Shown here: positions 1,929-19,526 of the stretch, in pieces
Layout of the letters: each line of letters starts with the position of its first letter
Position numbering within the stretch: position 1 is the stretch's first letter
From: Pseudomonas sp. SCA2728.1_7
Lineage (GTDB): Bacteria > Pseudomonadota > Gammaproteobacteria > Pseudomonadales > Pseudomonadaceae
Direction of reading: 5' to 3'
Length of the DNA stretch: 64,000 nt
Assembly (NCBI RefSeq): GCF_018138145.1
Contig: NZ_CP073104.1
Location: 5,213,001-5,277,000 of the forward strand
Program-made: the position numbers and the translations under genes
Notes under the pieces: model-generated
What the model was told of the DNA's origin: nothing
What the model saw: the letters and a program-made list of their open reading frames with translations, nothing else
Databases searched by the model: none

Positions 1929-3653
1929 TTAAAGAGTCTCGGATCCGGTCAGGCGCTTGATGGTGCTGCGCAGAATGGTGCTGTCGGGCTGATCCTTGAG
2001 GAATTTGCCCCAGATTTGTTTGGCTTCACGCTGGTTGCCCTTGGTCCACAACACTTCGCCCAGATGCGCGGCGACTTCGTGATCAGGGAAACGCTCCAGC
2101 GCTTGACGCAGATATTTCTCGGCGTCATCCAGATTGCCCAGGCGGTAATTCACCCAGCCGAGGCTGTCGAGTACGGCCGGGTCTTCCGGGTTGATCTGGT
2201 GTGCCTGCTCGATCAGCGTTTTGGCTTCAGCGTAGCGCGTGGTGCGATCGGACAGGGTGTAGCCCAAAGCATTGAGTGCCATGGCGTTGTCCGGATCACG
2301 CTTGATGATCAGGCGCAGATCTTTTTCCATCTGTGCCAGGTCATTGCGTTTTTCCGCGAGCATGGCCCGGGTGTAGAGCAGATTCAGATCGTCCGGGTAT
2401 TGCAGCAAAGCTTGCTGCAAGACTTTCCAGGCCTTGTCGTCCTGTTTATTGGCCGACAGGGTTTCCGATTCGATCAGGTACAACTGAATCGCGTAATCCG
2501 GTTGTTCGTCGCGCTGGGCGGCGAGTTTGCTTTGCGCTTCAGCGGTCTTGCCGTTGTTCATCAGAATATCGGCCTGACGCAATTGCGCTGGCAGATAGTC
2601 ATTGCCCGGGCCGACCTGGGCGTACTCGATGAGGGCGCCTTGCGGGTCGTTGCGTTCTTCAGCGATGCGACCGAGGTTCAGGTGCGCCGAATCGACGTGG
2701 CTTTCACGGGCGATCAAGTCTTCCAGATAACCCTTGGCTTCATCCCAGGCTTTGGCTTCCAGGCAGACCAAGGCCAGCGAGTAGCGCAGTTCGTCGTCTT
2801 CCGGGTATTGCTGCACAAGGCTGGAGAACTCGGCTTTGGCGTCGTCCATGCGGTCTTGTTCGACCAGCATGCGTGCGTAAGTCAGGCGCAGGCGTTTGTC
2901 GTCCGGATACTTCTTGATGCTTTTCTGCAGCAGTGGCAGCGCTTCGTCGCCTCGGTTGAGAATTTGCAGCAGGCGCGCGCGCAGCAGAATCGGCGCGATC
3001 TCGCCGTCATCCGGCGGATTGTCTTCGAGCAGGGCCAGCGCGGCTTTGTTGTCGCCGTCCTGTTGCAAGAGCAGGGCCTTGCCGAAAATCAGCTGGCTGT
3101 TGTTCGGATGACGCTGCAACAAACGGTCAAAACTTTTCATCAGACCGTTGCGGGTTTCCTGATCGGTATCCGCTGCCGACAGCGCGAGGAAGTCGAAATG
3201 GGTGTCGCCCTTGCCCTGCAGGACCTTCTCCATATAGACCATCGAGTCGTCATAACGCCCGGCGCGCGCCAGTTGCACGGCAGCGGCGCGTTGCGCTTCG
3301 AGGTCGTCCGGGGCGTTTTTCGCCCAGATCAGCGCGGTATCGAGGGCCGGTTGATCGGCGCCCAGATATTCGGCGATACGGAATGCGCGCTCGGAGACGC
3401 CCGGATCCTGCGTATTGATGGCCTGGGTCACGTAGTTATCCAGGGCAATGTCGAAACGATTGCGCTGGCCGGCGAGTTCGGCGCTCAACAGGCTGAAAAC
3501 GGTTTCCTCGCTGAACGAGCTGTAAACCTTGGGCTTTTCAGGCGCAGGCGTGGTGTCTTCAACCGACGGCGTACCGTCCGGCGAAACGGGAGCCAAGGCC
3601 TGGCAGCCGCTGAGGAAGACAAAAGCAAGGAGCAACGCGGAAGATCTATTCAT
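1929..3653 (-). CDS. Tetratricopeptide-repeat lipoprotein
   Basis: This 574-residue protein begins with a lipoprotein signal peptide (lipobox FLSGC, Cys at about residue 17) followed by a Pro/Thr-rich linker. The rest is made of TPR-like helical repeats, clearest in the C-terminal half with segments such as ALNALGYTLSD and AVLDSLGWVNYRLGNLDDAEKYLRQAL. TPR lipoproteins usually scaffold envelope complexes; the partner cannot be read from sequence. It is first in the TPR-lolB-ispE unit and divergent from hemA, with about 180 bp of shared promoter region. A conserved homologue occupies this place in other pseudomonads. No enzymatic motif was seen. Confidence 0.85.
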   Translation of the reverse strand: MNRSSALLLAFVFLSGCQALAPVSPDGTPSVEDTTPAPEKPKVYSSFSEETVFSLLSAELAGQRNRFDIALDNYVTQAINTQDPGVSERAFRIAEYLGADQPALDTALIWAKNAPDDLEAQRAAAVQLARAGRYDDSMVYMEKVLQGKGDTHFDFLALSAADTDQETRNGLMKSFDRLLQRHPNNSQLIFGKALLLQQDGDNKAALALLEDNPPDDGEIAPILLRARLLQILNRGDEALPLLQKSIKKYPDDKRLRLTYARMLVEQDRMDDAKAEFSSLVQQYPEDDELRYSLALVCLEAKAWDEAKGYLEDLIARESHVDSAHLNLGRIAEERNDPQGALIEYAQVGPGNDYLPAQLRQADILMNNGKTAEAQSKLAAQRDEQPDYAIQLYLIESETLSANKQDDKAWKVLQQALLQYPDDLNLLYTRAMLAEKRNDLAQMEKDLRLIIKRDPDNAMALNALGYTLSDRTTRYAEAKTLIEQAHQINPEDPAVLDSLGWVNYRLGNLDDAEKYLRQALERFPDHEVAAHLGEVLWTKGNQREAKQIWGKFLKDQPDSTILRSTIKRLTGSETL

Positions 3654-3835
3654 ATAGGAAGAGGACGACTAACCTGCGGTCGGATCATCATGACACAAGC
3701 CTTCGGCCAAACATAACCGAGACTCAATTGTGCCCATTATAGGGGCTGACGATTGGGACAATAGTCAGCGGTAGTTGTTCTGAATCTTTCGAAGGTGGAC
3801 AATTGCCGGCTTCACGTCACCATCAGCGACCTTGA

Positions 3836-5122
3836 ATGGCCTTCCTTGCACTCGGTATCAACCACAAGACTGCTTCAGTAGACGTCCGCGAGCGCGTGGC
3901 TTTTACTCCTGAACAGCTGGTGGAGGCCTTGCAGCAGCTCTGCCGACTGACCGACAGCCGCGAAGCCGCGATCCTCTCCACCTGCAATCGCAGTGAGCTT
4001 TATATAGAACAGGATCAGCTTTCTGCCGATATCGTGCTGCGCTGGCTGGCCGACTATCACCATTTAAGCCTCGATGAGCTGCGCGCGAGTGCTTATGTGC
4101 ATGAAGATGATGCGGCAGTTCGTCACATGATGCGCGTCGCCTCCGGGCTCGACTCGCTGGTGTTGGGCGAACCGCAGATTCTCGGCCAGATGAAATCGGC
4201 CTACGCCGTGGCCCGCGAGGCCGGAACCATCGGCCCGCTGCTGGGGCGACTGTTTCAAGCGACCTTCAATGCCGCCAAACAGGTACGCACCGACACCGCT
4301 ATCGGTGAAAACCCGGTGTCCGTGGCGTTTGCTGCCGTCAGCCTGGCGAAACAGATTTTCAGTGATTTGCAGCGCAGCCAGGCCTTGCTGATCGGCGCCG
4401 GCGAGACCATCACCCTGGTCGCCCGCCATTTGCACGAGCTGGGGGTCAAGCGCATCGTCGTCGCCAACCGCACGCTGGAACGCGCCAGTCTGCTGGCCGA
4501 ACAGTTCGGCGCTCACGCGGTGTTGCTGTCGGACATCCCGGCGGAACTGGTGCGCAGCGATATCGTGATCAGTTCGACTGCCAGTCAGTTGCCGATTCTC
4601 GGCAAGGGCGCGGTTGAAAGCGCTTTGAAGCTGCGCAAGCACAAACCGATCTTTATGGTCGACATCGCCGTTCCCCGCGATATCGAGCCGGAAGTCGGCG
4701 AGTTGGACGACGTTTACCTTTATAGCGTCGACGATCTCCACGAAGTGGTAGCCGAGAACCTCAAGAGTCGCCAGGGCGCAGCCCAGGCGGCGGAAGAAAT
4801 GGTTTCGGTCGGCGCTGACGATTTCATGGTGCGTCTGCGTGAGCTGGCGGCGGTCGATGTGCTCAAGGCCTATCGTCAACAGAGCGAACGCCTGCGCGAC
4901 GAGGAGCTGCAAAAAGCCCTGCGCCTGCTCGCCAACGGCGGCAACGCTGAAGACGTGCTCGGGCAACTGGCCCGTGGCCTGACCAATAAACTGTTGCATG
5001 CCCCGAGCGTGCAATTGAAAAAGCTTTCTGCCGAAGGCCGCCTTGATGCGCTGGCCATGGCCCAGGAACTCTTTGCCCTTGAGGGCTCACCGGATAGCTT
5101 TTCGGATAAAAAACCGCAATGA
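3836..5122 (+). CDS. hemA: Glutamyl-tRNA reductase
   Basis: HemA reduces glutamyl-tRNA(Glu) to glutamate-1-semialdehyde, the first committed step of the C5 pathway to tetrapyrroles. The 428-residue protein begins [20 protein letters not shown] and carries the catalytic Cys in STCNRSELY (about residue 50). [18 protein letters not shown] follows, then the NADPH-binding region around LLIGAGETI. The stop overlaps the prfA start as ATGA. The hemA-prfA-prmC order ties heme synthesis to translation-termination genes and is conserved in many gammaproteobacteria. The enzyme is usually controlled post-translationally by heme; nothing in the upstream 180 bp gives a clear operator. Confidence 0.98.
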
Positions 5123-6201
5123 AAGCGTCACTGCTCAATAAGCTGGATGTCCTCCAGGACCGTTTCGAGGAACTGACCGCGCTGCTTGGCGACGGCGAAG
5201 TCATTGCCGACCAGGCCAAATTCCGCGCTTATTCCAAGGAATACGCCGAACTCGAGCCGGTGGTACAAGGCTATAAAAAGCTGCTCAGCGTACAAAGCGA
5301 TCTTGAAGGCGCGCAGGCGCTGCTCAAGGACAGCGACCCGGACATGCGCGAAATGGCCGTGGAAGAAGTCCGCGAAGCCAAGGAATTGCTGATCACCCTG
5401 GAAGCCGATCTGCAACGCATGTTGCTGCCCAAGGATCCGAATGACGGCCGCAACGTCTTCCTCGAAATTCGCGCCGGCACCGGTGGCGACGAGGCAGCGA
5501 TCTTCTCCGGCGATTTGTTCCGCATGTACTCGCGTTACGCCGAGCGCCGTGGCTGGCGGGTCGAGATTCTTTCGGAAAACGAAGGCGAACACGGTGGCTA
5601 TAAAGAAGTCATCGCGCGCATTGAAGGCGACAACGTTTACGGCAAACTGAAATTCGAATCCGGCGCGCACCGCGTACAGCGCGTGCCCGCCACCGAATCC
5701 CAGGGCCGTATCCACACCTCGGCCTGCACCGTGGCGGTGTTGCCCGAGCCGGACGAGCGCGAAGCCATCGAGATCAATCCGGCGGATTTGCGCGTCGACA
5801 CGTTCCGTTCCTCCGGGGCTGGTGGTCAGCACGTCAACACCACCGACTCCGCGATCCGCATCACCCATATACCGACCGGCACCGTCGTCGAGTGTCAGGA
5901 AGAACGTTCCCAGCACAAAAACCGTGCACGGGCGATGGCGTGGTTGTCGGCCAAGCTCAATGATCAGCAAACCGCAGCGGCGGCCAATGCGATCGCCAGC
6001 GAGCGTAAATTGCTGGTGGGCTCGGGCGATCGTTCCGAGCGCATCCGCACCTACAACTTTGCCCAGGGCCGGGTTACAGACCATCGCGTCAACCTGACCC
6101 TGTATTCCCTCGATGAAATTCTTGCCGGTGGCGTTGAAGCGGTGATCGAGCCATTGCTGGCCGAATATCAGGCTGACCAACTCGCAGCGATAGGTGAATA
6201 A
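5119..6201 (+). CDS. prfA: Peptide chain release factor 1
   Basis: RF1 recognises UAA and UAG stop codons on the ribosome and triggers peptide release. The 360-residue length is typical. The stop-codon reading motif P-x-T is visible in [17 protein letters not shown]. The peptidyl-transferase GGQ motif lies in [17 protein letters not shown], with Gln at residue 237. The gene starts inside the last codons of hemA (4-base overlap) and is followed immediately by prmC, whose product methylates the GGQ glutamine. The start AUG AAA GCG follows directly from this coupling. Confidence 0.98.
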
Positions 6202-7032
6202 ATGACCATCATTGCCAGCCTGTTGCGTGCCGCCGAATTGCCGGATTCACCGACTGCGCGTCTGGATGCCGAGTTGCTTCTGGCCGCGGCACTGGGCAAA
6301 TCGCGCAGCTTTCTGCACACCTGGCCCGAGCGCATCGTGCCAAGTGAAGCAGCGCTGACCTTTGCCGAATACCTGCAACGTCGCCGTGGCGGCGAGCCGG
6401 TGGCCTACATTCTCGGGCAGCAGGGGTTCTGGAAACTCGATCTGGAAGTCGCACCGCACACGCTGATCCCGCGTCCGGACACTGAGTTGCTGGTGGAAGC
6501 GGCGCTGGAATTGCTGCCCGCGACCCCGGCCAAAGTGCTCGACCTCGGCACTGGCAGCGGTGCGATTGCTTTGGCCTTGGCCAGCGAGCGTCCGGCGTGG
6601 AAAGTCACCGCCGTGGATCGCGTACTCGAAGCCGTAGCTTTGGCCGAGCGCAATCGCCAGCGCCTGCATCTGAACAACGCCACGGTGCTGAGCAGCCATT
6701 GGTTCAGCGCGCTGGAAGGTCAGCGTTTCCAGTTGATCATCAGCAACCCGCCGTACATTGCTGCCGCCGATCCGCATCTGGTCGAAGGCGATGTGCGCTT
6801 CGAACCGGCCAGTGCGCTGGTTGCCGGTGAGGACGGTCTCGACGATCTGCGTCTGATCGTTGCGCAGGCCCCGGAACATCTGCAGGCCGCTGGCTGGTTG
6901 ATGCTCGAACACGGCTATGATCAAGCCGAAGCCGTGCGTGATCTGCTGCTGACCCGCGGTTTCGAAGAAGTCCACAGCCGCACCGATCTGGGCGGTCATC
7001 AACGCATCAGTCTGGGGCGTCTGCCGTGCTGA
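6202..7032 (+). CDS. prmC: Release factor glutamine methyltransferase
   Basis: PrmC uses S-adenosylmethionine to N5-methylate the Gln of the GGQ motif in RF1 and RF2. The 276-residue protein has an N-terminal helical domain, the SAM motif I VLDLGTGSGAIALALA at about residues 112-127, and the amide-methyltransferase signature NPPY beginning at Asn182. It starts directly after the prfA stop with no gap, which fits co-expression of enzyme and substrate. The stop overlaps the moeB start by 7 bases. Confidence 0.97.
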   Translation: MTIIASLLRAAELPDSPTARLDAELLLAAALGKSRSFLHTWPERIVPSEAALTFAEYLQRRRGGEPVAYILGQQGFWKLDLEVAPHTLIPRPDTELLVEAALELLPATPAKVLDLGTGSGAIALALASERPAWKVTAVDRVLEAVALAERNRQRLHLNNATVLSSHWFSALEGQRFQLIISNPPYIAAADPHLVEGDVRFEPASALVAGEDGLDDLRLIVAQAPEHLQAAGWLMLEHGYDQAEAVRDLLLTRGFEEVHSRTDLGGHQRISLGRLPC

Positions 7033-7781
7033 ATGATCAGGAATTGCTGCGCTACAGTCGGCAGATTCTGCTGCAACACATCGACATCGACGGGCAATTG
7101 AAGCTCAAGGACAGTCGCGTGCTGATCGTCGGTCTCGGCGGTCTCGGTGCGCCGGTTGCGCTGTATCTGGCCGCGGCCGGTGTCGGCCAATTGCATCTGG
7201 CGGATTTCGATACCGTCGACCTGACCAACCTGCAACGTCAGATCATCCATGACACCGACAGCGTCGGCATGAGCAAGGTCGACTCGGCGCTCAAGCGTCT
7301 GGGCGCGATCAATCCCGAGATCCAACTGATCGCTCACCGTCAGGCACTGGACGAAGATTCTCTCGCGGCTGCCGTGGCGGCGGTGGATCTGGTGCTCGAC
7401 TGCTCCGATAATTTCTCCACTCGTGAGGCGGTCAACGCGGCGTGCGTGGCCGCGTGTAAACCGTTGGTCAGCGGTGCGGCGATTCGTCTGGAAGGTCAGC
7501 TATCGGTGTTCGACCCACGTCGTGCCGAGAGTCCGTGTTACCACTGTTTATACGGACACGGCAGCGAAGCCGAACTGACTTGCAGCGAGGCCGGTGTGGT
7601 CGGGCCGCTGGTCGGCCTGGTTGGTAGCCTGCAGGCGCTGGAAGCCTTGAAGGTGCTGGTCGGTTTCGGCGAACCACTGGTGGGTCGCTTGCTGTTGATC
7701 GATGCCCTCGGCTCGCGTTTCCGCGAGTTGCGCGTCAAGCGTGATCCGGGTTGCAGCGTCTGTGGTTCGCGCCATGCGTGA
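7026..7781 (+). CDS. moeB: HesA/MoeB/ThiF family sulfur-carrier adenylyltransferase
   Basis: MoeB-type proteins adenylate the C-terminus of a small sulfur-carrier protein (MoaD in molybdopterin synthesis). The 251-residue protein has the nucleotide-binding loop [16 protein letters not shown] near residues 37-52 and the [13 protein letters not shown] segment. Two Cys pairs are visible, CYHC and a C-terminal CSVC, that probably bind structural zinc. The GTG start at 7026 overlaps the end of prmC by 7 bases; no in-frame ATG lies nearby. Homologues sit between prmC and murI in other pseudomonads. ThiF or HesA function cannot be excluded from sequence alone. Confidence 0.92.
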
Positions 7782-8565
7782 AGCGCCGATCGGCGTGTTC
7801 GACTCCGGTGTCGGCGGCTTGTCGGTACTGGCGGAAATTCAGCGTTTGTTGCCCAATGAATCACTGCTCTATGTCGCCGATTGCGGGCACATTCCCTACG
7901 GTGAGAAAACCCCTGAGTTCATTCGCCAGCGTTGCAGCGTGATGGCCGGGTTTTTCCGCGAGCAAGGTGCCAAGGCGTTGGTGCTGGCCTGCAATACCGC
8001 GACGGTCGCGGGCGTTGCCGATTTGCGTCGTGATTTTCCCGACTGGCCAATAGTCGGCATGGAGCCAGCGGTCAAACCCGCCGCCGCCGCAACCCGCAGC
8101 GGTGTGGTCGGCGTGCTCGCCACCACCGGCACATTGCAGAGCGCCAAATTCGCCGCGTTGCTGGATCGCTTTGCCGCTGATGTACGCGTGATCACCCAGC
8201 CATGCCCTGGCCTGGTCGAGCTGATTGAAAGCGGCGATCTGCACAGCGCCGAGTTGCGCCAGTTGCTGCAAGGGTATGTCGAGCCACTGTTGGCCAGCGG
8301 TTGCGACACGATCATTCTGGGCTGCACCCACTATCCCTTTCTCAAGCCGATGCTCAAGTCGATGATCCCAGCGGACATCACGCTGATCGATACCGGTGCG
8401 GCTGTAGCGCGGCAACTTCAGCGGCTTTTGGCGGAGCGCGATTTGCTCGCTGCCGGCCCGAACCAGGCGGTCAGATTCTGGACCAGCGCTGATCCTGCCT
8501 ACTTCAGAAACATCCTGCCGCTACTGGGCCAGAGTGCCGGCGAAGTGCAAAACTTCGACTTGTAA
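7774..8565 (+). CDS. murI: Glutamate racemase
   Basis: MurI interconverts L- and D-glutamate to supply D-Glu for peptidoglycan. The chosen start at 7774 gives [19 protein letters not shown], the family's N-terminus with its catalytic Asp region; a longer frame upstream only reads through moeB. The two catalytic cysteines are in ACNTATVAG and [10 protein letters not shown]. The product is 263 residues, the expected size. It overlaps moeB by 8 bases and ends the hemA-prfA-prmC-moeB-murI operon. No hairpin terminator is obvious between its stop and pagL. Confidence 0.96.
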
Positions 8566-9683: not shown

Positions 9684-10175
9684 TCAGTGCGCCAACCGGC
9701 GCGCTATGGAATGCAGCAGCGGAAACAGCAGTGCCCAGAGCAGGCCGATGCCGATCAATGTCGGTAACTCGCCATAGGGAAATTGCACCCCGGCCAGTCG
9801 CCCGCCAGCGTAATACGACAACGCGCCGCCGACCGCGCCCAGCACGCTGGCCAGCCACCATGGCCGGGCGCTCCATGCCAGGCAATGACGCAACGTGGTC
9901 GCCAGCAGTGCCCAGAGCAGCATCAGCCACAGCGGAATCAGTGGCGACTGATCCTGAAACTCGAACACCCCGACACCACGCAACACACTGTCCACCGCCG
10001 TGCCGACAATCACCACGCTCAAAATCAAACGGCCTTCAGCCGCCCAACTGCTGATCCAGCGCAGATGAATCACCAACACCGCCAACGCCAGCAGCAGCCA
10101 CAAGCTGTTGCCGCCGAGCACGCAGGTCAGCCAGCCGATCTGGAACAACACGGCATTGGCGACACGCTCAAGCAT
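9684..10175 (-). CDS. DUF2878 integral membrane protein
   Basis: This 163-residue hydrophobic protein has about five predicted membrane segments (for example NSLWLLLALAVLVIHLRW and LLWALLFPLL) and matches what I recall of DUF2878. Its function is unknown. It is the last gene of the nine-gene overlapping minus-strand block, its start lying 8 bases inside the end of the Cfa-like gene. Co-occurrence with the Cfa, DUF1365 and FAD-oxidoreductase genes suggests a membrane role in the same fatty-acid modification, which is inference. Confidence 0.8.
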   Translation of the reverse strand: MLERVANAVLFQIGWLTCVLGGNSLWLLLALAVLVIHLRWISSWAAEGRLILSVVIVGTAVDSVLRGVGVFEFQDQSPLIPLWLMLLWALLATTLRHCLAWSARPWWLASVLGAVGGALSYYAGGRLAGVQFPYGELPTLIGIGLLWALLFPLLHSIARRLAH

Positions 10176-11433
10176 CGAAGCGTCCGAGCAGCGGTGCGGT
10201 CATTGCAGCCGGTTTGGCCAGCAACAACTGCGCGGTGCCGATGGTGCGTTCGAGGAAGCCGCCCTCGCAGTAACACAGGTAAAACTCCCACAGGCGCAGG
10301 AAATAATCGTCATAGCCCAGTTCGGTGAGACGGCCATGGGCGCGGCGGAAGTTCTCATGCCACAGGCGCAGGGTTTTTGCGTAATGCAGGCCGAAATCTT
10401 CCATGTGCAGCAGGTTCATATCGGTGTCGCGGCTGACCACCTCGAGCATTTTCTGCACACAGGGCAGGGCGCCGCCGGGGAAAATGTAGCGCTGGATGAA
10501 ATCGACGCCGCGCTTGGCCTGTTCGTAGCGCTGTTCGCGGATGGTGATCGCCTGGATCAGCATCAAACCGTTGCTCTTGAGCAAGTGCGCGCATTGTTTG
10601 AAGTAGGTCGGCAGGAAGCGGTGGCCGACCGCTTCGATCATCTCGATCGACACCAGTTTGTCGTATTCGCCGGTGAGGTCGCGGTAGTCCTTGAGCAGCA
10701 GCGTGACCTGATCCTGCAAACCCAGTTGTTCGATGCGTTGTGCGGTAAACGCGTACTGTTCTTTCGAGAGTGTTGTGGTGGTCACGCGGCAACCGTAATT
10801 CTGGGCGGCGTAAAGCGCCATGCTGCCCCAACCGGTGCCGATCTCCAGCAAATGATCATCGGGTTTGAGCGCGAGCTTCTGGCAGATCCGCTCCAGTTTG
10901 TTCAGCTGCGCCTGCTCCAGGCTGTCTTCGGGCGTAAGGAACTGCGCCGCCGAATACATCATGGTCGGGTCGAGAAACTGTTCGAACAGATCGTTACCGA
11001 GGTCGTAGTGCGCGGCGATGTTTTTCTGCGAACCCTTGCGCGTGTTGCGGTTGAGCCAGTGCAGGCCTTGCACCAGCGGCCGGCCGAGGCGGGCCAGGCC
11101 ACCCTCCATGGCATCGAGCACATCGAGGTTGCTGACGAACACGCGCACCACCGCTGTCAGATCCGGTGAACTCCAATAACCGTGGATAAACGCCTCGCCA
11201 GCACCAATCGAACCATTGCCGGCAACCATGCCCCAGACGGCCGAGTCGAGCACATGGATTTCCCCGAGCAAGGCACTGCCCGGCGTACCGAACATCAGAC
11301 GTTCGCCATCCTCGACCACCAGCAGTTGCCCGTTTTTCAACTGAGCCAATTGGCGCAGCACTCCACGGCGCAGCAGCGATCCGGTCAAACCGTTGGCGCT
11401 GAACCGACTGACCGACAGACTAGAGGATTTCAT
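10168..11433 (-). CDS. Cyclopropane-fatty-acyl-phospholipid synthase family methyltransferase
   Basis: The protein is a SAM-dependent methyltransferase acting on unsaturated acyl chains of membrane lipids. The start at 11433 (MKSSSLSVSRF) was preferred to a frame 63 bases longer because it has an AAGGAG site at the right distance. The product is 421 residues. The SAM motif is LLEIGTGWGSMALYAA; the segments YDLGNDLFEQFLDPTMMYSAA and SIEMIEAVG are characteristic of Cfa. Its neighbours (an FAD amine-oxidase-like gene and DUF1365) match operons linked to furan or otherwise modified fatty acids and photo-oxidative stress rather than the stationary-phase cfa gene. The exact product, cyclopropane or methylated chain, is uncertain. 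Confidence 0.88.
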   Translation of the reverse strand: MKSSSLSVSRFSANGLTGSLLRRGVLRQLAQLKNGQLLVVEDGERLMFGTPGSALLGEIHVLDSAVWGMVAGNGSIGAGEAFIHGYWSSPDLTAVVRVFVSNLDVLDAMEGGLARLGRPLVQGLHWLNRNTRKGSQKNIAAHYDLGNDLFEQFLDPTMMYSAAQFLTPEDSLEQAQLNKLERICQKLALKPDDHLLEIGTGWGSMALYAAQNYGCRVTTTTLSKEQYAFTAQRIEQLGLQDQVTLLLKDYRDLTGEYDKLVSIEMIEAVGHRFLPTYFKQCAHLLKSNGLMLIQAITIREQRYEQAKRGVDFIQRYIFPGGALPCVQKMLEVVSRDTDMNLLHMEDFGLHYAKTLRLWHENFRRAHGRLTELGYDDYFLRLWEFYLCYCEGGFLERTIGTAQLLLAKPAAMTAPLLGRFDA

Positions 11434-12235
11434 GGCGGTGCTCCTTGGGAGGCACAGTGGCGGTTTGAAAGCTGCCGTCGGCAGCCTGATGAGCAAAGAG
11501 CGGTGCGCGTTTGAGCAGCAGGCGCATCGCCTGCCAGTAAATCGCCAAGGCAGTTTTCGCGGTCATCCACGGAAAGCGCCGCAAGTAACGATGCAGGCTG
11601 CGACGATCAAGATTTTCGCGTTGCAGATTGAGTGTGGCGTCGAACAGTTTTTGCTCGCCTTGCCAGTCGGCCATGTGCACACCGAGGGCTTGCGCGGCGG
11701 GACTGAAACTCATGCGGTATTCGAGATCGCGGGGCAGAAACGGCGAAACGTGAAAGGCTTTGGCCACGGCGAAGTGCTGATGAAAATCCTGCAGATTGGC
11801 GGGCGTGCGCGCCGGCAGCACATAGTGATAACGCTCGCGCCACGGCGTATTGGTGACTTCGCAAACAATCGCCGCCAGTTGTCCGTCGGCCTCATGGCAA
11901 TAAAAGAAACTCACCGGATTGAACGACAACCCCCAACTGCGCGCCTGGGTCAGCAGGCAGATCGCGCCTTGCGGTTCATGGCCGATGGCGATGCCGACCT
12001 GCTGACGCACGGCATCGATCAGGCGCATGCCTCGGCCGGTAAAGGTCTTCAGGTAGTCGGTCTCGCGAAAGGAAAACGGCGCAAAGCGACTGCGCCCGGC
12101 CAGCGGCGACAGTGCAAGCACGGCGTCCTGTTCGCTGAGGTCGAGGTAGAGCAGACCGATCCGATAGCGGAATTCATGGCGGCGCGGCGAGAAACGCCGA
12201 TGGCCGATCCAGCCGCTGTACAGGGCGCTGTTCAT
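11420..12235 (-). CDS. DUF1365 family protein
   Basis: The 271-residue protein begins MNSALYSGWIGHRRFSPRRHEFRYRI and has the DUF1365 hallmarks GRSRFAPFSFRETDYLKTF and NPVSFFYCHEADG. The family is widely found between an FAD-dependent amine-oxidase-like gene and a Cfa-like gene, as here. It overlaps the FAD gene by 4 bases (ATGA) and the Cfa-like start by 14 bases. A role in modifying unsaturated fatty acids is suggested by that recurring context; no catalytic residues can be named from sequence. Confidence 0.88.
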   Translation of the reverse strand: MNSALYSGWIGHRRFSPRRHEFRYRIGLLYLDLSEQDAVLALSPLAGRSRFAPFSFRETDYLKTFTGRGMRLIDAVRQQVGIAIGHEPQGAICLLTQARSWGLSFNPVSFFYCHEADGQLAAIVCEVTNTPWRERYHYVLPARTPANLQDFHQHFAVAKAFHVSPFLPRDLEYRMSFSPAAQALGVHMADWQGEQKLFDATLNLQRENLDRRSLHRYLRRFPWMTAKTALAIYWQAMRLLLKRAPLFAHQAADGSFQTATVPPKEHRHEIL

Positions 12236-13479
12236 AAGGTTTCCCCGAACGCAGCGGCCACGCGTAAGGCGCTGACGACACCGTCCTCATGAAAACCGTT
12301 GGCCCAATAGGCGCCGCAATAATGTGTGTGCTGCGCGCCATCCAGTTCGCCCCAGCGATTCTGTGCCGCCACCGCAGCGAGGCTGAATTGCGGATGGGCA
12401 TAGGTGTAACGGGCAAGCACTTTGTCGGGGCTGATGCCGGCGCTCTGATTGAGGCTGACGCAGAACGTGGTGTTGCTCTGAATGCCCTGCAGAATGTTCA
12501 TGTCGTAGGTGACGGCGGCGTGGGTATGGCCAGCGCCGCTGAGCCGATAGTTCCAGCTCGCCCACGCAAGTTTGCGTGTCGGCAACAAGCGCGTGTCGGT
12601 GTGCAGCACCACTTCGTTGGCGGCGTAGGGCAGGGCGCCGAGGATCGCGCGTTCGGCATCGCTCGGCATCGCCAGCAGTTTCAACGCTTGATCGCTGTGA
12701 CAGGCGAACACCACCTGATCGAAGTGTTCGAGGCCTGCCGGGCTGTGGATAACTACGCCATGCACGTCACGATCAACCCGGGTTACCGGGCAATTGATAC
12801 GAATCCGCTCCTTGAACGCGGCTGTCAGCGGCGCGATATAGGCGCTCGAGCCGCCTTCGATAACTTGCCATTGCGGACGATCACTGACCGACAACAGTCC
12901 ATGATTCTTGAAAAAACGTACGAAAAACTGCAGCGGGAAATTGAGCATTTCCGCCATTGGCATCGACCAGATCGCCGAGCCCATCGGCACGATGTAATGC
13001 AGGATGAAACGCTCGCCGTAACCGCCAGCCTTGAGGTATTCGTCGAGGGTGGTGTCGGCGGCGATGCGCAGTTCAAGGAGGTCGCGCTGGGCTTCTTTGT
13101 TGAAGCGCAGAATGTCGCGCAACATGCCCCAGAACCCGGGCGAAAACAGGTTGCTGCGCTGGGCGAACAGGCTGTTGAGGTTGTTGCCGTTGTACTCCAG
13201 ACCGGTGTCCGGGTCGGTCACCGAGAAACTCATTTCGGTCGGTTTGAACGCTACGCCAAGCTGGCCGAGCAGACGGATGAAATTCGGGTAGGTCCAGTCG
13301 TTGAACACAATGAAACCGGTGTCCACGGCGTACTGCCGTCCAGCGACCGTAACGTCGACGGTGTGCGTGTGACCACCGACCCAGTCGCCGGCCTCGAACA
13401 CCGTCACTTCATGGCGGCGATTGAGCAGGTAAGCGCAGGTCAGCCCGGCGATCCCGCTGCCGACGATGGCTATTTTCAT
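12232..13479 (-). CDS. FAD-dependent amine-oxidase-like oxidoreductase
   Basis: The N-terminus MKIAIVGSGIAGLTCAYLLN is a Rossmann dinucleotide-binding motif (G-x-G-x-x-G), followed by EAGDWVGGHTHTVDV, as in flavin amine oxidases and fatty-acid desaturase-like flavoproteins. The chosen start at 13479 overlaps the SDR stop (ATGA) and gives 415 residues; a longer frame upstream would lie within the SDR gene. FAD is likely non-covalent. By analogy with operons encoding furan fatty-acid synthesis, this could introduce a double bond into a methylated acyl chain. The substrate is inferred, not seen. Confidence 0.88.
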   Translation of the reverse strand: MKIAIVGSGIAGLTCAYLLNRRHEVTVFEAGDWVGGHTHTVDVTVAGRQYAVDTGFIVFNDWTYPNFIRLLGQLGVAFKPTEMSFSVTDPDTGLEYNGNNLNSLFAQRSNLFSPGFWGMLRDILRFNKEAQRDLLELRIAADTTLDEYLKAGGYGERFILHYIVPMGSAIWSMPMAEMLNFPLQFFVRFFKNHGLLSVSDRPQWQVIEGGSSAYIAPLTAAFKERIRINCPVTRVDRDVHGVVIHSPAGLEHFDQVVFACHSDQALKLLAMPSDAERAILGALPYAANEVVLHTDTRLLPTRKLAWASWNYRLSGAGHTHAAVTYDMNILQGIQSNTTFCVSLNQSAGISPDKVLARYTYAHPQFSLAAVAAQNRWGELDGAQHTHYCGAYWANGFHEDGVVSALRVAAAFGETL

Positions 13480-14258
13480 GTCGGATCCGTCAGTGGTGGA
13501 GACTTGCGCACCATGCGCTTGCCGATCGCCAGTTGTACCCGCGATGGAAGTTTCGATAGCGGCCACAGCGCGGCCATGAACAGCGCCGGGAAGGCGATCT
13601 CCAGCGGCCGGTCCTTGAGCTTGGCGAAGATGTGCCGTGCGGCTTTATCCACAGGCCAGCTCAAGGGCATGGGGAAATCGTTTTTTGCGGTCAGCGGTGT
13701 TTCGACAAAACCCGGGCTGACCACGGTGACTTCAATGCCTTCGTCGGCCAGATCGATGCGCAGCGATTCGAACAGGTAACGCAATCCGGCCTTCGAGGCG
13801 CCGTAGGCTTCGGCTCGTGGCAGCGGCAGGTAGGTCACCGAGCTGGCCACGCCGATCAGATGCGGCGCAGTGCCTTTGCGCAGCAGCGGCAGGGCAGCCT
13901 CGATGCAATAACTGCTGGCGAGCAAATTGGTGCGCACCACATGCTCGATGATCGAGGAATCGAACTGCTTGGCGTCGACATATTCGCAGGTGCCGGCGTT
14001 GAGAATCACCGAGTCCAGCGAACCCCAGTCTGCGGCGATCTGCTCACCGATTTCGCGCACTGTCTGGCTGTTGGTCAGATCTCCCGGTACCACCAAAACC
14101 TGCCCCGGATAGCGTTGCGACAAGACCTTGAGCGGGGCGATCTGACGGGAACTGACCGCCAAGTGCGCACCGGTTTTCAGGATCTCTTCAGCCAGCGCGG
14201 CGCCGATGCCACTGCTGGCCCCGGTCAACCAATACCGCCGTGGAGGTGTACGACTCAT
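13476..14258 (-). CDS. SDR family NAD(P)-dependent oxidoreductase
   Basis: This is a classical short-chain dehydrogenase of 260 residues. The cofactor motif is TGASSGIGAALAEEI at about residues 13-27, NAG follows at about residue 91 in VILNAGTCEY, and the catalytic Tyr-x3-Lys is in AEAYGASKAGLR. The substrate is unknown. It overlaps its neighbours by 4 bases on both sides (the NTF2-like gene upstream, the FAD oxidoreductase downstream), so translation is probably coupled across the block. Confidence 0.9.
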   Translation of the reverse strand: MSRTPPRRYWLTGASSGIGAALAEEILKTGAHLAVSSRQIAPLKVLSQRYPGQVLVVPGDLTNSQTVREIGEQIAADWGSLDSVILNAGTCEYVDAKQFDSSIIEHVVRTNLLASSYCIEAALPLLRKGTAPHLIGVASSVTYLPLPRAEAYGASKAGLRYLFESLRIDLADEGIEVTVVSPGFVETPLTAKNDFPMPLSWPVDKAARHIFAKLKDRPLEIAFPALFMAALWPLSKLPSRVQLAIGKRMVRKSPPLTDPT

Positions 14259-14677
14259 CCCATTCTCCTTTTCAGCCAGGCAATGACCCGGCCCAATACT
14301 GGCAAGTGTTCATACAGCAGCGCCCCGGCATCGAAGTAATCCCGGTGGCGATAAACCTTGTCGCGCCAGAGCAGGTGCGAGCAGCCGCTGACGCGAATCA
14401 AGCGGCCACCCGCCAGGCGTGGATGGCGATAGCTCATGACCCAGCGCAGGTAACCTTCGCAGTCGCCGATCTGGTCGAAACCATGAAAGTCGAAATGCAG
14501 TTCGCTGACGTTGGCGTATAGCTCGCCGAAATAGTCGCGTAACTGCGCCAGCCCCTGGACCTCGTGCAGCGGGTCGGTGAAATGAATGTCATCGCTGTAC
14601 AGCTCGCCCAGGCTTTGCAGGTTGTCTTTGTTCAACGCTGAAAATTGCCGGGCGAAGCGGCGCAGGAATTCACTCAT
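14255..14677 (-). CDS. NTF2-like (SnoaL-type) small protein
   Basis: The 140-residue protein has the alpha+beta-barrel pattern of NTF2/SnoaL proteins, with YSDDIHFTDPLHEVQG near the N-terminus and conserved aromatics (ELHFDFHGFDQIG, YLRWVMSY). The start at 14677 (MSEFLRRF) was preferred because AGGAGG lies 5 bases upstream; an adjacent ATG 3 bases earlier is too close to it. Homologues accompany the SDR and FAD genes in similar clusters. It may be a non-enzymatic binding protein or a lipid or ketone isomerase-like enzyme; the function is unknown. It overlaps phrB by 8 bases. Confidence 0.82.
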   Translation of the reverse strand: MSEFLRRFARQFSALNKDNLQSLGELYSDDIHFTDPLHEVQGLAQLRDYFGELYANVSELHFDFHGFDQIGDCEGYLRWVMSYRHPRLAGGRLIRVSGCSHLLWRDKVYRHRDYFDAGALLYEHLPVLGRVIAWLKRRMG

Positions 14678-16115
14678 CATCGCCTCCTGTAGATGTTCGC
14701 GAAGGCAGATTCTTGAAGGCTGCCAAGGCCCGCTGACGCGAGGCGCTGAGGTTGACGATCGGCGACGGATAGTCCGCCGCGCCGAACAATCCACCGACGG
14801 CGGCCGGGTTGTGCACTTGTTTTTTGTTGAGGCCGACCAGTTCCGGCAGCCAGTGCTTGATGAACAGGCCTTCGCTGTCGAATTTTTCCGACTGGCTCAG
14901 CGGGTTGAAGATGCGGAAGTACGGCGCCGAATCGGTGCCCGTCGACGAACTCCATTGCCAGCCACCGTTGTTCGCCGCCAGATCCCCATCGATGAGGTGA
15001 CGCATGAAAAAGCGTTCGCCTTCGCGCCAGTCGATCAGCAGGTTTTTGGTCAGGAACATCGCCACGATCATGCGCAGGCGATTGTGCATCCAGCCGGTTT
15101 CGAGCAATTGGCGCATGGCTGCGTCGATGATTGGCAGACCGGTGCGCGCCTCTTGCCACGCGGCGAGATCGTCCGGCGCATCACGCCAGGCCAGCGCCTC
15201 GGTTTCCGGGCGGAAAGCGCGATGGCGGGAAACGCGGGGATAGCCGACCAGAATGTGTTTGTAGAACTCGCGCCACAGCAGCTCGTTGATCCAGGTGACC
15301 GCACCGACCTTGCCGCTTTCGAATTCGCCCTGATTGCTTTGCAGGGCGGCGTGCAGGCATTGGCGCGGTGAGATCACGCCGGCAGCGAGATACGCCGAGA
15401 GCTGACTGGTGCCGGGCTTGGCCGGGAAGTCGCGTTCGCTCTGGTAGTAATCGATCTGAGCGTCGGTGAAGGTGTCGAGGCGGCGTCGGGCTTCCTGTTC
15501 ACCGGCTGGCCACAGCGCTCGCAGCGAGTCGCTCGGGGTCGCGAAGCCTTTGACGGAATCAGGAACCGGGTCGCTGTCGATGTTCAAAGCGCTTTGTTTG
15601 CCGGGAGCCTTTATCAGCGCAGGCATCGAGCGATGCAGGCGTTCGTAACAGACTTTGCGGAACTGGCTGAACACCTTGAAGTAACTCTCGGTCTTGGTCA
15701 GCACGCTGCCGGGTTTGAACAGCAACTGGTCGAGATAGCTGTGAAACGTGATGCCCTCGGCCTTCAGTGTTTCGGCCACCGCTGCATCGCGACGGCTTTC
15801 ATGGACGCCATATTCTTCGTTGACGTGCACTGCCGCTATCTTCAGCTGCCGGCAGAGCTTGAGCAGTTCTGCCGGGGCCTGATCCCAATGGGTTGCAGTG
15901 CGAATCAGCAACGGGATGTTGAGTTGGCCAAGGCTTGCGCTTAACTCACTCAGGTTGCGCAACCAGAAGTCGACCTTGCACGCTGCATCGTCATGTTCCA
16001 GCCATTGCTGCGGACTCAACAGATACACGGCGACCGTCGGGCCGCGTGCTGCGGCGGCCGCGAGAGCGGTGTTGTCATGTTGGCGCAAGTCGCTGCGCAG
16101 CCAGATCAATTGCAT
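14670..16115 (-). CDS. phrB: Deoxyribodipyrimidine photolyase (class I CPD)
   Basis: This enzyme uses blue light and FADH2 to split cyclobutane pyrimidine dimers in DNA. The N-terminal antenna domain begins MQLIWLRSDLRQHDNTALA. The FAD-binding C-terminal half includes LPIIDAAMRQLLETGWMHNR, FLTKNLLIDWREGERFF, DGDLAANNGGWQW and TDSAPYFRIFNP, all typical of class I photolyases. The start at 16115 gives the usual N-terminus and 481 residues. An ATG at 16136, overlapping the merR stop as TAATG, would add 7 residues and cannot be excluded. Its place directly after a MerR-type gene suggests light-induced expression. Confidence 0.95.
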   Translation of the reverse strand: MQLIWLRSDLRQHDNTALAAAAARGPTVAVYLLSPQQWLEHDDAACKVDFWLRNLSELSASLGQLNIPLLIRTATHWDQAPAELLKLCRQLKIAAVHVNEEYGVHESRRDAAVAETLKAEGITFHSYLDQLLFKPGSVLTKTESYFKVFSQFRKVCYERLHRSMPALIKAPGKQSALNIDSDPVPDSVKGFATPSDSLRALWPAGEQEARRRLDTFTDAQIDYYQSERDFPAKPGTSQLSAYLAAGVISPRQCLHAALQSNQGEFESGKVGAVTWINELLWREFYKHILVGYPRVSRHRAFRPETEALAWRDAPDDLAAWQEARTGLPIIDAAMRQLLETGWMHNRLRMIVAMFLTKNLLIDWREGERFFMRHLIDGDLAANNGGWQWSSSTGTDSAPYFRIFNPLSQSEKFDSEGLFIKHWLPELVGLNKKQVHNPAAVGGLFGAADYPSPIVNLSASRQRALAAFKNLPSRTSTGGDDE

Positions 16116-16135
16116 GTCGGAACTCACTGCGTCCA

Positions 16136-17077
16136 TTAGATCAGCCCACGCTGCACGAGTACCTGGTGCGCCAGCAGCGCGTCTTCAGCCAGGAACACAT
16201 CAGCCATCTCGGAAGTTCTTACGGACAACTCGGCGTGGTGGATGCATACCGTTGGTCCGACCAGCATTTTCGGGCAACTGACTCCGTTCAATAGTTTCGG
16301 CAACTGCGCAAGGTTCATGGCTTTGCTGGAATACAGCAGTACGCCACGGGCTTGCAGATGTTCGACCGCCAACGCCAATTCGGCGGCCGGCAGCGGCCAG
16401 TCAAACACTTGCACCGGACAATCAGCGCTACTGATCAGCCACGCGCACAGCCACAGATGAGGTTCCAGTGGCAGGTCGGAATGATTGATCAATAACAGCG
16501 GGGCGCCATGTAACTGACGATTGTTATGGTAGATGCGGGTGCCGAATTTGCTGCGTAACCACGAATAAAAGAACACCCGCTCCATTTGCGCGCCGAACTG
16601 GCCTTGCCAGCGCTGCTCCAGTTCTGCCAGCAGCGGCATCAGCAATTGCTCACACAACGTGCGTGGCGGGTAGAGCGCCATGGCCTGATTGACGCTGTCG
16701 TCGAGGCTGCGTTCATTGAGTTGGGTGACGGCGGCAAGCAGGGTTTGGCGCAAGCGTTGCCAGTCGTTTTCCACCGATTCGCTGAACGCCTGTGGTGCGT
16801 CGAGCAGCGGTTTGACTTGGCTGACTGCAACGCCACGGTTGAGCCAGGTGAGAATGGCCAGAATTTGCTGCACGTGTTCGGCGGAGTAGAGCCGGTGACC
16901 CTTTGGGGTGCGTTGCGGTACGACCAGCCCGTAGCGGCGTTCCCACGCACGCAGGGTGATCGCGTTGACGCCGGTCTGCCGGGCGACTTCGCGAATCGGC
17001 AGCCAGCCCTCGTCGAGGGCTTTTTTAAAATCCGCGCCAAGGTCTTCCCGGGCGCTGGTATCCATTTTGTCGTTCAT
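16136..17077 (-). CDS. MerR-family regulator, LitR/CarH-like class without B12 motif
   Basis: The 313-residue protein has an N-terminal MerR winged helix-turn-helix (WLPIREVARQTGVNAITLRAWERRYGL, residues about 24-50) and a long C-terminal domain of LitR/CarH layout. Class I members bind adenosylcobalamin through DxHxxG; no such motif is seen here. That fits the class II proteins described in Pseudomonas and Burkholderia, which control light-induced photolyase and fatty-acid genes through a separate LOV photosensor. The ATG at 17077 overlaps the upstream stop as TAATG. It probably represses or activates this operon and the neighbouring one through the TGTACA-type sites at 18060-18132 and 19472-19522. 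The DNA-binding link is inferred. Confidence 0.85.
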   Translation of the reverse strand: MNDKMDTSAREDLGADFKKALDEGWLPIREVARQTGVNAITLRAWERRYGLVVPQRTPKGHRLYSAEHVQQILAILTWLNRGVAVSQVKPLLDAPQAFSESVENDWQRLRQTLLAAVTQLNERSLDDSVNQAMALYPPRTLCEQLLMPLLAELEQRWQGQFGAQMERVFFYSWLRSKFGTRIYHNNRQLHGAPLLLINHSDLPLEPHLWLCAWLISSADCPVQVFDWPLPAAELALAVEHLQARGVLLYSSKAMNLAQLPKLLNGVSCPKMLVGPTVCIHHAELSVRTSEMADVFLAEDALLAHQVLVQRGLI

Positions 17078-18039
17078 TAGATTGCGTTTCGCAGGCTGAG
17101 GTTTTCCGGGTGCGGTTGCAGGTAAACCTGTTGCGCGATGTACGAATCCGGATGGAGGCGAAAGTGGTGCTTGAGCAGCGTCAACGGCACCACCAGCGGC
17201 ACGATGCCCTGGCGGTACTGGCCGATGACGTGCTGCATTTCCTGTTTGTCTTCGGCGCTGATTACCTGTTTCAGATAACCGCTGATGTGCAGCAGCACGT
17301 TGCAGTGGGTGCCGCGCGTGGCGCATTTTTTCAACGCCGCCATCAGTTCGCTGAAGTAGCGCGGGCCGAGTTCGGCGGGATCGCTGTGCGCCATGTTGCC
17401 GAGCAGTTTGCCCAGTGTTTTGTATTGCAGCGGGTTATGCGCCATCAGCAAATATTTGTAGCGCGAATGAAATTCGGTGAGGGCGCGACGGCTCAGGCCA
17501 TTGGCGAGGACTTGCTGCCATTCGCTGTAGGCGAACACGCGGGTGATGAAGTTCTCGCGCAGCACCGGATCGTTGAGGCGCCCGGCTTCTTCCACGGGCA
17601 GATCCGGATGCCGTGCGCAGAACGCTTGGGCATAGATTCCGCGCCCGCCGCCGTTCACCGGGGCGCCGTTGGCGTGGTAGACCTTGACCCGCTCCAGGCC
17701 GCAGGACGGTGATTGCTGCATGAAGATGTAGCCGCAGATGTCATCGAGTTCGGCGGCCATTTTCTCGCCGTATTCGGCCAGCGGCTGGGTAACGTTGATC
17801 GCCCGGTTCACCGTGCCGACCGCTTGTGGATGCTCGGCATCGCCAACGAGACGGATCGGTTCGCGCGGGATGCCCAGGCCGATCGCGACCTCCGGACACA
17901 CCGGAACGAAATCGAAATGCTCGGTGAGGGTGCGGCTGCACAGGCGTGACTCCTTGTGGCCACCGTTGTAGCGCACCTCGGCACCCAGCAGGCAGGCGCT
18001 GATGGCGATTTTTGGTTTGGCTAGGCAAGGGTCAGACAT
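17077..18039 (-). CDS. YbgA-type protein: DUF523 fused to DUF1722
   Basis: The N-terminal DUF523 part starts PKIAISACLLGAEVRYNGGHK and contains QQSPSCGLERVKVY; the C-terminal DUF1722 part contains FHSRYKYLLMAHNPLQYKTLG and ends with LNVLL-like helices. Conserved cysteines suggest a metal or Fe-S site, but the reaction is not established. The start at 18039 (MSDPCLAKPK) lies inside a longer frame that would include the promoter. The gene is first in the nine-gene operon, directly behind the paired TGTACA sites. DUF523/DUF1722 genes often neighbour photolyase and MerR genes in other bacteria. Confidence 0.88.
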   Translation of the reverse strand: MSDPCLAKPKIAISACLLGAEVRYNGGHKESRLCSRTLTEHFDFVPVCPEVAIGLGIPREPIRLVGDAEHPQAVGTVNRAINVTQPLAEYGEKMAAELDDICGYIFMQQSPSCGLERVKVYHANGAPVNGGGRGIYAQAFCARHPDLPVEEAGRLNDPVLRENFITRVFAYSEWQQVLANGLSRRALTEFHSRYKYLLMAHNPLQYKTLGKLLGNMAHSDPAELGPRYFSELMAALKKCATRGTHCNVLLHISGYLKQVISAEDKQEMQHVIGQYRQGIVPLVVPLTLLKHHFRLHPDSYIAQQVYLQPHPENLSLRNAI

Positions 18040-18059: not shown

Positions 18060-18132
18060 TGTACAGAGGTTGATCTCTGTACAACTTTGCTCAGCATAGA
18101 TTCATGGGTGTACAAGTCAAATTATTTGTATA
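18060..18132 (-). promoter_or_regulatory. Promoter region with two TGTACA-N12-TGTAYA operators
   Basis: A perfect inverted repeat, TGTACAGAG (18060-18068) and CTCTGTACA (18075-18083), is separated by 6 bases. A second pair, TGTACA at 18109-18114 and TGTATA at 18127-18132, has the same 12-base separation between hexamers. A candidate minus-strand promoter (TTGACT, 16 bases, TATGCT) lies among them. The likely binder is the MerR/LitR-like protein encoded next door; that is inference. Confidence 0.6.

Positions 18133-18252: not shown

Positions 18253-19526
<1,274 letters not shown>

Follow-up and report, generated by a model that had tools for sequence, protein, structure and literature searches.

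What do a MerR-type regulator, a DNA photolyase, a tRNA enzyme and a set of genes for fatty acid modification have in common, that they should share a single block of overlapping genes? The question is raised by nine genes lying within a stretch of 64,000 nucleotides of the genome of Pseudomonas sp. SCA2728.1_7 (contig NZ_CP073104.1, positions 5,213,001 to 5,277,000; hereafter, the window). The comparative analysis points, with high probability, to a photoprotection operon derepressed by blue light, in which a LitR/LOV switch, the photolyase PhrB, the tRNA enzyme RudS, a furan-lipid branch and some accessory genes are brought together. The reading of the open reading frames of the window revealed nine complete ATG-started frames arranged head to tail on the minus strand, from 18039 to 9684, and at each of the eight junctions the stop and start regions overlap (by 1, 1, 8, 4, 4, 4, 14 and 8 bases in the order of transcription). 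Thus, the nine-gene block with overlapping or nearly touching junctions described in a first-pass annotation of this DNA is real, all the overlaps being of 1-14 bases.

Every named domain among the nine proteins is backed by Pfam. In the order of transcription, and all on the minus strand, the genes are: the putative rudS (17077..18039), whose product joins a 2-thiouracil desulfurase (TudS) domain to DUF1722 (PF04463 and PF08349) and, by homology, would be a tRNA 4-thiouridine desulfidase; a class II LitR (MerR) regulator of the PmlR1/PplR1 type (16136..17077; MerR and B12-binding_2); phrB, deoxyribodipyrimidine photolyase (14670..16136); a SnoaL/NTF2-like protein (14255..14677; PF12680); a short-chain dehydrogenase/reductase (SDR; 13476..14258; PF00106); an amine-oxidase-type flavin adenine dinucleotide (FAD) protein, the predicted fatty acyl desaturase UfaD (12232..13479; PF01593); a DUF1365 protein, the predicted furan-forming fatty acyl oxygenase UfaO (11420..12235; PF07103, 250.9 bits); a protein of the CMAS family, the predicted S-adenosylmethionine-dependent cis-vaccenoyl methylase UfaM (10168..11433; PF02353); and a DUF2878 protein (9684..10175; PF11086, 146.4 bits). 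The eight products that the first-pass annotation had named agree with Pfam, the first gene, which it had left without a name, being the TudS-DUF1722 fusion RudS; its statement that five of the nine products lack an assigned reaction was too pessimistic, as the literature leaves three (SDR, SnoaL and DUF2878).

The operon is another copy of a light operon that has already been described, and its lipid pathway and tRNA enzyme have both been characterized elsewhere. In Pseudomonas mendocina NBRC 14162, the nine genes PME6650-PME6610, with overlapping or close codons, likely form a polycistron (PMC9758184). The two operons share the nine products, their order, the overlapping or close codons and the promoter core TTGACT-N16-TATG(A/C)T, as well as two boxes of the TGTACA-N12-TGTACA type in the same places and a second LitR encoded elsewhere beside a short LOV protein. 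The correspondence is drawn by position: PME6650 to RudS, PME6635 to SnoaL, PME6630 to the SDR, PME6625 to UfaD, PME6620 to DUF1365 and PME6610 to DUF2878. In that work PME6650, PME6635, PME6620 and PME6610 are given as hypothetical, PME6630 as an SDR and PME6625 as an FAD oxidoreductase and, unlike here, PME6625 and PME6620 carry no UfaD or UfaO name in the available text of the source (PMC9758184). Blue light raised the transcripts of P. mendocina ufaM 25-33-fold, of phrB 27-33-fold and of pmlR1 6-10-fold in quantitative reverse transcription PCR (PMC9758184), and ufaM and phrB are reported to be similarly regulated in P. putida KT2440. The nine genes are very probably switched on together by blue light in this Pseudomonas as well.

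The promoter of the operon (approximately 18132-18060) falls outside the interval covered by the first-pass annotation. The sequence reads as a predicted sigma-70 promoter on the minus strand, TTGACT-N16-TATGCT (18093..18120), with the -35 hexamer at 18120-18115 and the -10 at 18098-18093. An exact match to the LitR pattern TRTACA-N12-TGTAYA lies over the -35 hexamer (Site 1, TATACA-N12-TGTACA, 18109..18132, minus strand) and another one between the predicted transcription start and the first ATG (Site 2, TGTACA-N12-TGTACA, 18060..18083, minus strand); the promoter core begins within Site 1 and finishes ahead of Site 2. The mapped P. mendocina promoter P6650 reads TTGACT-N16-TATGAT, with two TGTACA-N12-TGTACA sites over the -35 and before the ATG, both of them inside the DNase I footprint of PmlR2 (PMC9758184). 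With up to one mismatch allowed, the window contains three LitR sites, whereas 100 shuffled versions averaged 0.06 sites and never exceeded 1. In the whole 6.78 Mb single-contig genome the exact pattern occurs five times, versus none for the reversed control. Two of these five sites are those of the operon promoter. The real overlaps, together with a promoter carrying two exact boxes and a conserved core, uphold the earlier proposal of one translationally coupled operon, and the boxes, together with the induction of the corresponding P. mendocina operon, speak for that of a light or photo-oxidative regulon under a LitR-like MerR protein.

How such a switch might work can be read from its components. 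The LitR of the operon combines MerR_1 and B12-binding_2, with no second B12-binding (cobalamin) domain at E values up to 0.001; class II LitR proteins have the four-helix B12-binding_2 region without the cobalamin-binding domain (PMC9758184). A second LitR is encoded elsewhere in the genome, next to the gene of a short LOV protein (motif QDCRFLQ), and this cluster (3186-7904 of an 11-kb stretch) is followed by a folM-like SDR gene and by folE- and folX-like genes, the latter two read from translations. In the dark, the class II LitR repressors, that is, the one encoded in the operon and the one adjacent to the LOV gene, would occupy both TGTACA-type sites, the one overlapping the promoter and the one behind it. 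In vitro, the illuminated LOV protein of P. mendocina (PmSB-LOV) binds the LitR protein PmlR2 and takes it off the DNA (PMC9758184); by analogy, a LOV protein activated by blue light would here remove LitR and allow the synthesis of one nine-gene message. PhrB would then mend ultraviolet damage in DNA, RudS would take the photosensitive 4-thiouridine out of tRNA, and cis-vaccenoyl chains of membrane phospholipids might be turned into methylated furan fatty acids, as shown in Rhodobacter: UfaM would methylate the chain, UfaD would bring in the second double bond and UfaO would add oxygen derived from O2, closing the furan.

Concerning the two enzymes acting on nucleic acids, the photolyase scores 523.9 bits against the NCBIfam equivalog NF007955 (cut-off 506), which places it among the class I cyclobutane pyrimidine dimer photolyases. 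RudS has been characterized as a tRNA 4-thiouridine desulfidase, RudS_KT being PP_0741 of P. putida KT2440, and the genes for RudS, PhrB and LitR are said to share an operon (PMC11417400). The window protein has the same domain fusion, with the three Fe-S cysteines and the catalytic Glu and Ser: Cys16, Cys48, Cys113, Glu50, Ser110, Ser112, Arg59, Arg23, Tyr24 and Asn25 correspond to the RudS_KT positions minus one. It differs from PP_0741 in the Ser243/Arg244 region, which reads Thr/Arg at 241-242 with an offset of two.

The lipid branch is where a pathway had been called unresolved by the first-pass annotation; it has in fact been worked out in Rhodobacter and Rhodopseudomonas (PMC7380195). 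In R. sphaeroides, the methylation of cis-vaccenoyl chains by UfaM yields 11Me-12t-18:1, UfaD produces 11Me-10t,12t-18:2, and UfaO, a DUF1365 protein, forms the furan, the oxygen coming from O2; in R. palustris, RPA2571-2569 have the gene order D, O, M (PMC7380195). In Halomonas the three ufa genes are consecutive, and E. coli carrying its ufaM produced 11-methyloctadec-12-enoate (PMC12089945). We infer from sequence and context that the FAD, DUF1365 and Cfa-like proteins of the window are UfaD, UfaO and UfaM, so that the furan or methylated fatty acid branch suspected earlier finds its match in UfaD-UfaO-UfaM: the FAD protein is of the amine-oxidase type and its gene sits directly before ufaO, as expected of UfaD, and the DUF1365 gene sits in a ufaD-ufaO-ufaM unit, as expected of UfaO. 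With a protein from Pseudomonas (P0004), the DUF1365 protein shares 92% identity. The family occurs in 78 of 274 genomes of Gammaproteobacteria; leaving aside the genome under study, G209 and G264 (split matches), one locus per genome gave a census of 75 loci, some of them cut by contig ends and one (L127) lacking a closed UfaO frame. Profiles built from the window proteins detected UfaO in 74 of them, UfaD in 72 and UfaM in 70, and a script found the three genes contiguous, in the order UfaD, UfaO, UfaM and with gaps below 300 bases, in 64 loci. A search of the phylum added 23 positive genomes outside the class; in the 20 loci taken from these, UfaD is always present and a UfaM-class gene is found in 15.

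The furan pathway of R. sphaeroides is under the RpoE/ChrR singlet-oxygen response. Such control is implied by the chrR mutants described in PMC7380195. The Rhodobacter/Rhodopseudomonas pathway and the present one share the CMAS methylase, the FAD desaturase and the DUF1365 oxygenase, and the operons of Rhodobacteraceae also have an SDR and mostly DUF3833; here, in contrast, the genes lie behind LitR boxes, are joined to photolyase and RudS and include no MFS gene, and DUF3833 belongs to a separate operon that has a LitR box of its own. In the best 80 named loci among the matches listed, from Rhodobacteraceae and close kin, the order UfaD, UfaO, DUF3833, SDR was found 58 times and UfaD, UfaO, SDR 11 times, the remaining 11 being variable or cut; R. 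sphaeroides is not among these 80. In Pseudorhodobacter ferrugineus, UfaO and DUF3833 are separated by an MFS gene, and the order agrees with that of RSP1091-1087, where RSP1088 has 186 amino acids and RSP1087 has 245 (PMC7380195). Each P. ferrugineus protein has its namesake as best match among 15 proteins of the genome under study, with identities of 41% over 416 amino acids for UfaD, 33% over 221 for the SDR and 33% over 157 for the DUF3833 protein of the LitR-boxed DUF3833-SDR unit. The SDR of the window (a homologue of the one lying downstream in the ufaDO operons of Rhodobacteraceae) is probably not a step of furan synthesis, since deletion of RSP1087, RSP1088 or RSP1089 left the furan acid of R. 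sphaeroides unchanged (PMC7380195). An exact LitR box accompanies only one of the 75 gammaproteobacterial loci (L096, from the same family, with all nine genes in order), none of the 20 loci from other classes and none of the 80 named ones; LitR-box control is not a general companion of the furan genes.

What remains of the operon is narrowed to SDR, SnoaL and DUF2878, which are now tied to DUF1365 (UfaO) by their co-occurrence in genomes. Across the same 274 genomes, the SnoaL subfamily (E up to 1e-12) is present in 31, of which 30 have DUF1365, the exception being a partial, weak match; DUF1365 is also present in 44 of the 53 genomes positive for the SDR (E up to 1e-55), in 38 of the 42 positive for DUF3833 and in 34 of the 46 positive for DUF2878, versus 78 of 274 overall. 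DUF2878 occurs in 27 of the 75 UfaO loci, always directly behind a CMAS gene. Hence, the tie to the furan genes is close for SnoaL and DUF3833 and looser for SDR and DUF2878. These counts are to be read with the SnoaL and SDR profiles in mind, which derive from sequences adjacent to UfaO and favor such neighbors (the genome searches ignored position), and with an SDR cut-off set after the scores were seen; moreover, related genomes are not independent, and the Fisher values for co-occurrence are descriptive. On the basis of this co-occurrence, SDR, SnoaL and DUF2878 look like accessory genes of the furan-lipid pathway. The same six lipid-side genes form a predicted operon in Aeromonas salmonicida (NTF2-SDR-FAD-DUF1365-cfa-DUF2878), reported, unlike the systems above, without an experimental function in the accessible part of the source, the measured effect being a lower expression in a riboflavin experiment (PMC10012899). 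Separately, a DUF2878 protein has a phenotype elsewhere: the Vibrio cholerae gene VC1123 has been assigned to the regulon of the MerR-type PhrR and is reported to affect colonization (PMC12971978).

Different explanations might be proposed for the lipid branch. One is that the Cfa-like protein is nothing but a cyclopropane fatty acid synthase of the ordinary type, in which case the substrates of the FAD and DUF1365 proteins would be cyclopropane or carotenoid-like lipids. The protein does belong to the CMAS family, and its best NCBIfam match is the Cfa model PRK11705; the score of 280.5 bits, however, is under the cut-off of 400, and the genome holds another, stronger CMAS gene (369 versus 296 bits), which is the canonical Cfa. 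The residues argue in the same direction. In the numbering of E. coli Cfa (structure 6bqc; Gly236 and His240 counted from the alignment with an offset of one), the canonical Cfa of the genome has Cys139, Gly236, Glu239, His240, His266 and Tyr317 where the window protein has Ala, Glu, Glu, Ala, Gln and Tyr, respectively. The bicarbonate ligands of Cfa are Glu239, His266 and Tyr317 (PMC11387697), and the window protein retains only Glu239 and Tyr317, while the Cfa of the same genome keeps His266. Its Glu264, Ala268 and Gln294 (the last aligned with His266) are typical of the UfaM class, as among 69 such proteins Glu replaces Gly236 in 69, Ala replaces His240 in 67 and Gln replaces His266 in 68; at the Cys139 position, Ser or Ala is found in 60 and Cys is kept in 8. 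The loss of His266 may mark UfaM and would stop the closure of the ring, leaving a methylated chain. With the Cfa cut-off missed, a separate Cfa in the genome and Gln in place of the His266 ligand, the gene was rejected as a canonical Cfa, and we give the cyclopropane explanation very little credit.

Two other possibilities concern the end product and the operon itself. The branch might end at the methylated diene, or at some other oxygenated acyl chain, if the DUF1365 protein differs in function from the UfaO of Rhodobacter; its identity to the proteins of Rhodobacteraceae is indeed low (27% to the first aligned sequence), and a literature search judged mostly by titles and the beginnings of abstracts brought up neither a measurement of furan fatty acids in Pseudomonas nor the use of the names UfaD or UfaO for this genus. 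On the other hand, the gene context is conserved, and His12, Arg14, Phe105-Asn106-Pro107, Glu126, Tyr138, Lys159 and Ser164-Pro165-Phe166 are invariant or almost invariant across 98 DUF1365 sequences, which makes this outcome unlikely, if somewhat less so than the previous one. That the overlaps just reflect genome compaction, the nine genes not being one light regulon in this strain, appears scarcely credible given that two exact LitR boxes are placed as in the footprinted promoter and that the corresponding P. mendocina operon is induced, even though the expression of the operon here is deduced. Several points do weigh against a light-controlled furan operon. Both light induction and the lipid product are attributed to this strain through homology, and the link to UfaM, UfaD and UfaO passes through census genomes, named Rhodobacteraceae and papers, the R. 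sphaeroides proteins lying outside the sequence set; UfaO is just 37% identical over 157 amino acids to the P. ferrugineus protein. The E. coli strain expressing Halomonas ufaM also showed cyclic fatty acids (PMC12089945). The contiguous trio is lacking in 11 of the 75 loci (L056, L057, L089, L090, L101, L103, L111, L117, L127, L128 and L130), in some cases because of contig ends, over-long frames or frame artefacts. In P. mendocina the promoter region of folM is a target of PmlR2 (PMC9758184), whereas no LitR box was found at up to two mismatches within the 11 kb of the LOV-LitR2-folM/folE/folX-like locus. Lastly, nine SDR-positive genomes (among them G040, whose match is strong at 6.2e-99) and 12 DUF2878-positive ones (several with strong matches) are without DUF1365; thus, these two families also occur apart from it.

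The proposed photoprotection operon, with its furan-lipid branch, joins three lines of work that, in the accessible parts of their sources, have so far been linked only in part: the LitR/LOV operon of Pseudomonas (UfaM and PhrB), furan synthesis in Rhodobacter (UfaD and UfaO) and RudS. On this reading, pseudomonads of the ordinary, non-photosynthetic kind would be expected to make furan lipids in daylight. As for the accessory genes, a recycling of the oxidized furan is a guess. It might be imagined that SDR and SnoaL, with DUF2878 and the LitR-boxed pair of DUF3833 and a second SDR, form a maintenance module in which a furan opened by singlet oxygen (an enedione) is closed again by reduction and SnoaL-type cyclization, so recycling a membrane antioxidant, UfaO itself perhaps folding as a nitrobindin-like barrel of the calycin type and possibly acting as a haem oxygenase; as a whole, we regard this proposal as a long shot. 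A sequence search of the PDB with DUF1365 gave no matches at E up to 1, and Foldseek with the UfaO model gave none at E <= 0.001, nitrobindin-type matches being borderline only. As a distinct observation, a second CMAS protein is encoded in 21 of the 75 census loci, with both His residues kept and Gly replaced by Glu in all 21; it is possibly FufM-like or another lipid methylase.

Some further LitR boxes and neighboring genes complete the picture. Apart from the operon promoter, exact sites lie 66 bases before a cryB-like gene (cryptochrome/photolyase-related, PF04244) and 54 bases before the DUF3833-SDR pair, which comes after a GTP cyclohydrolase gene; the fifth exact box (G000:4482269) falls within a coding sequence, is probably due to chance and was rejected as a regulon site. 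The use of one-mismatch boxes for a genome-wide extension of the regulon was also rejected, 24 sites at no more than one mismatch, versus 17 for the reversed control, being near chance. In the window, a candidate third box with one mismatch (19499..19522, minus strand) is found upstream of the FAD gene 19451-18465; it is a weak candidate, as one-mismatch sites are near chance genome-wide. This second gene for an FAD amine-oxidase-like protein and an overlapping one for a Trp-rich DUF2389 protein (18253-19451, minus strand) lie just upstream of the operon and are possibly a light-regulated unit. The DUF3833 gene and that of the second SDR overlap behind their exact box, at approximately 844237-845564 of the genome. 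Finally, a gene recognized by eye as old-yellow-enzyme-like (2844-3968 of the cryB locus L018, minus strand) adjoins the LitR-boxed cryB, outside the cryB unit; an ene-reductase would suit furan recycling.

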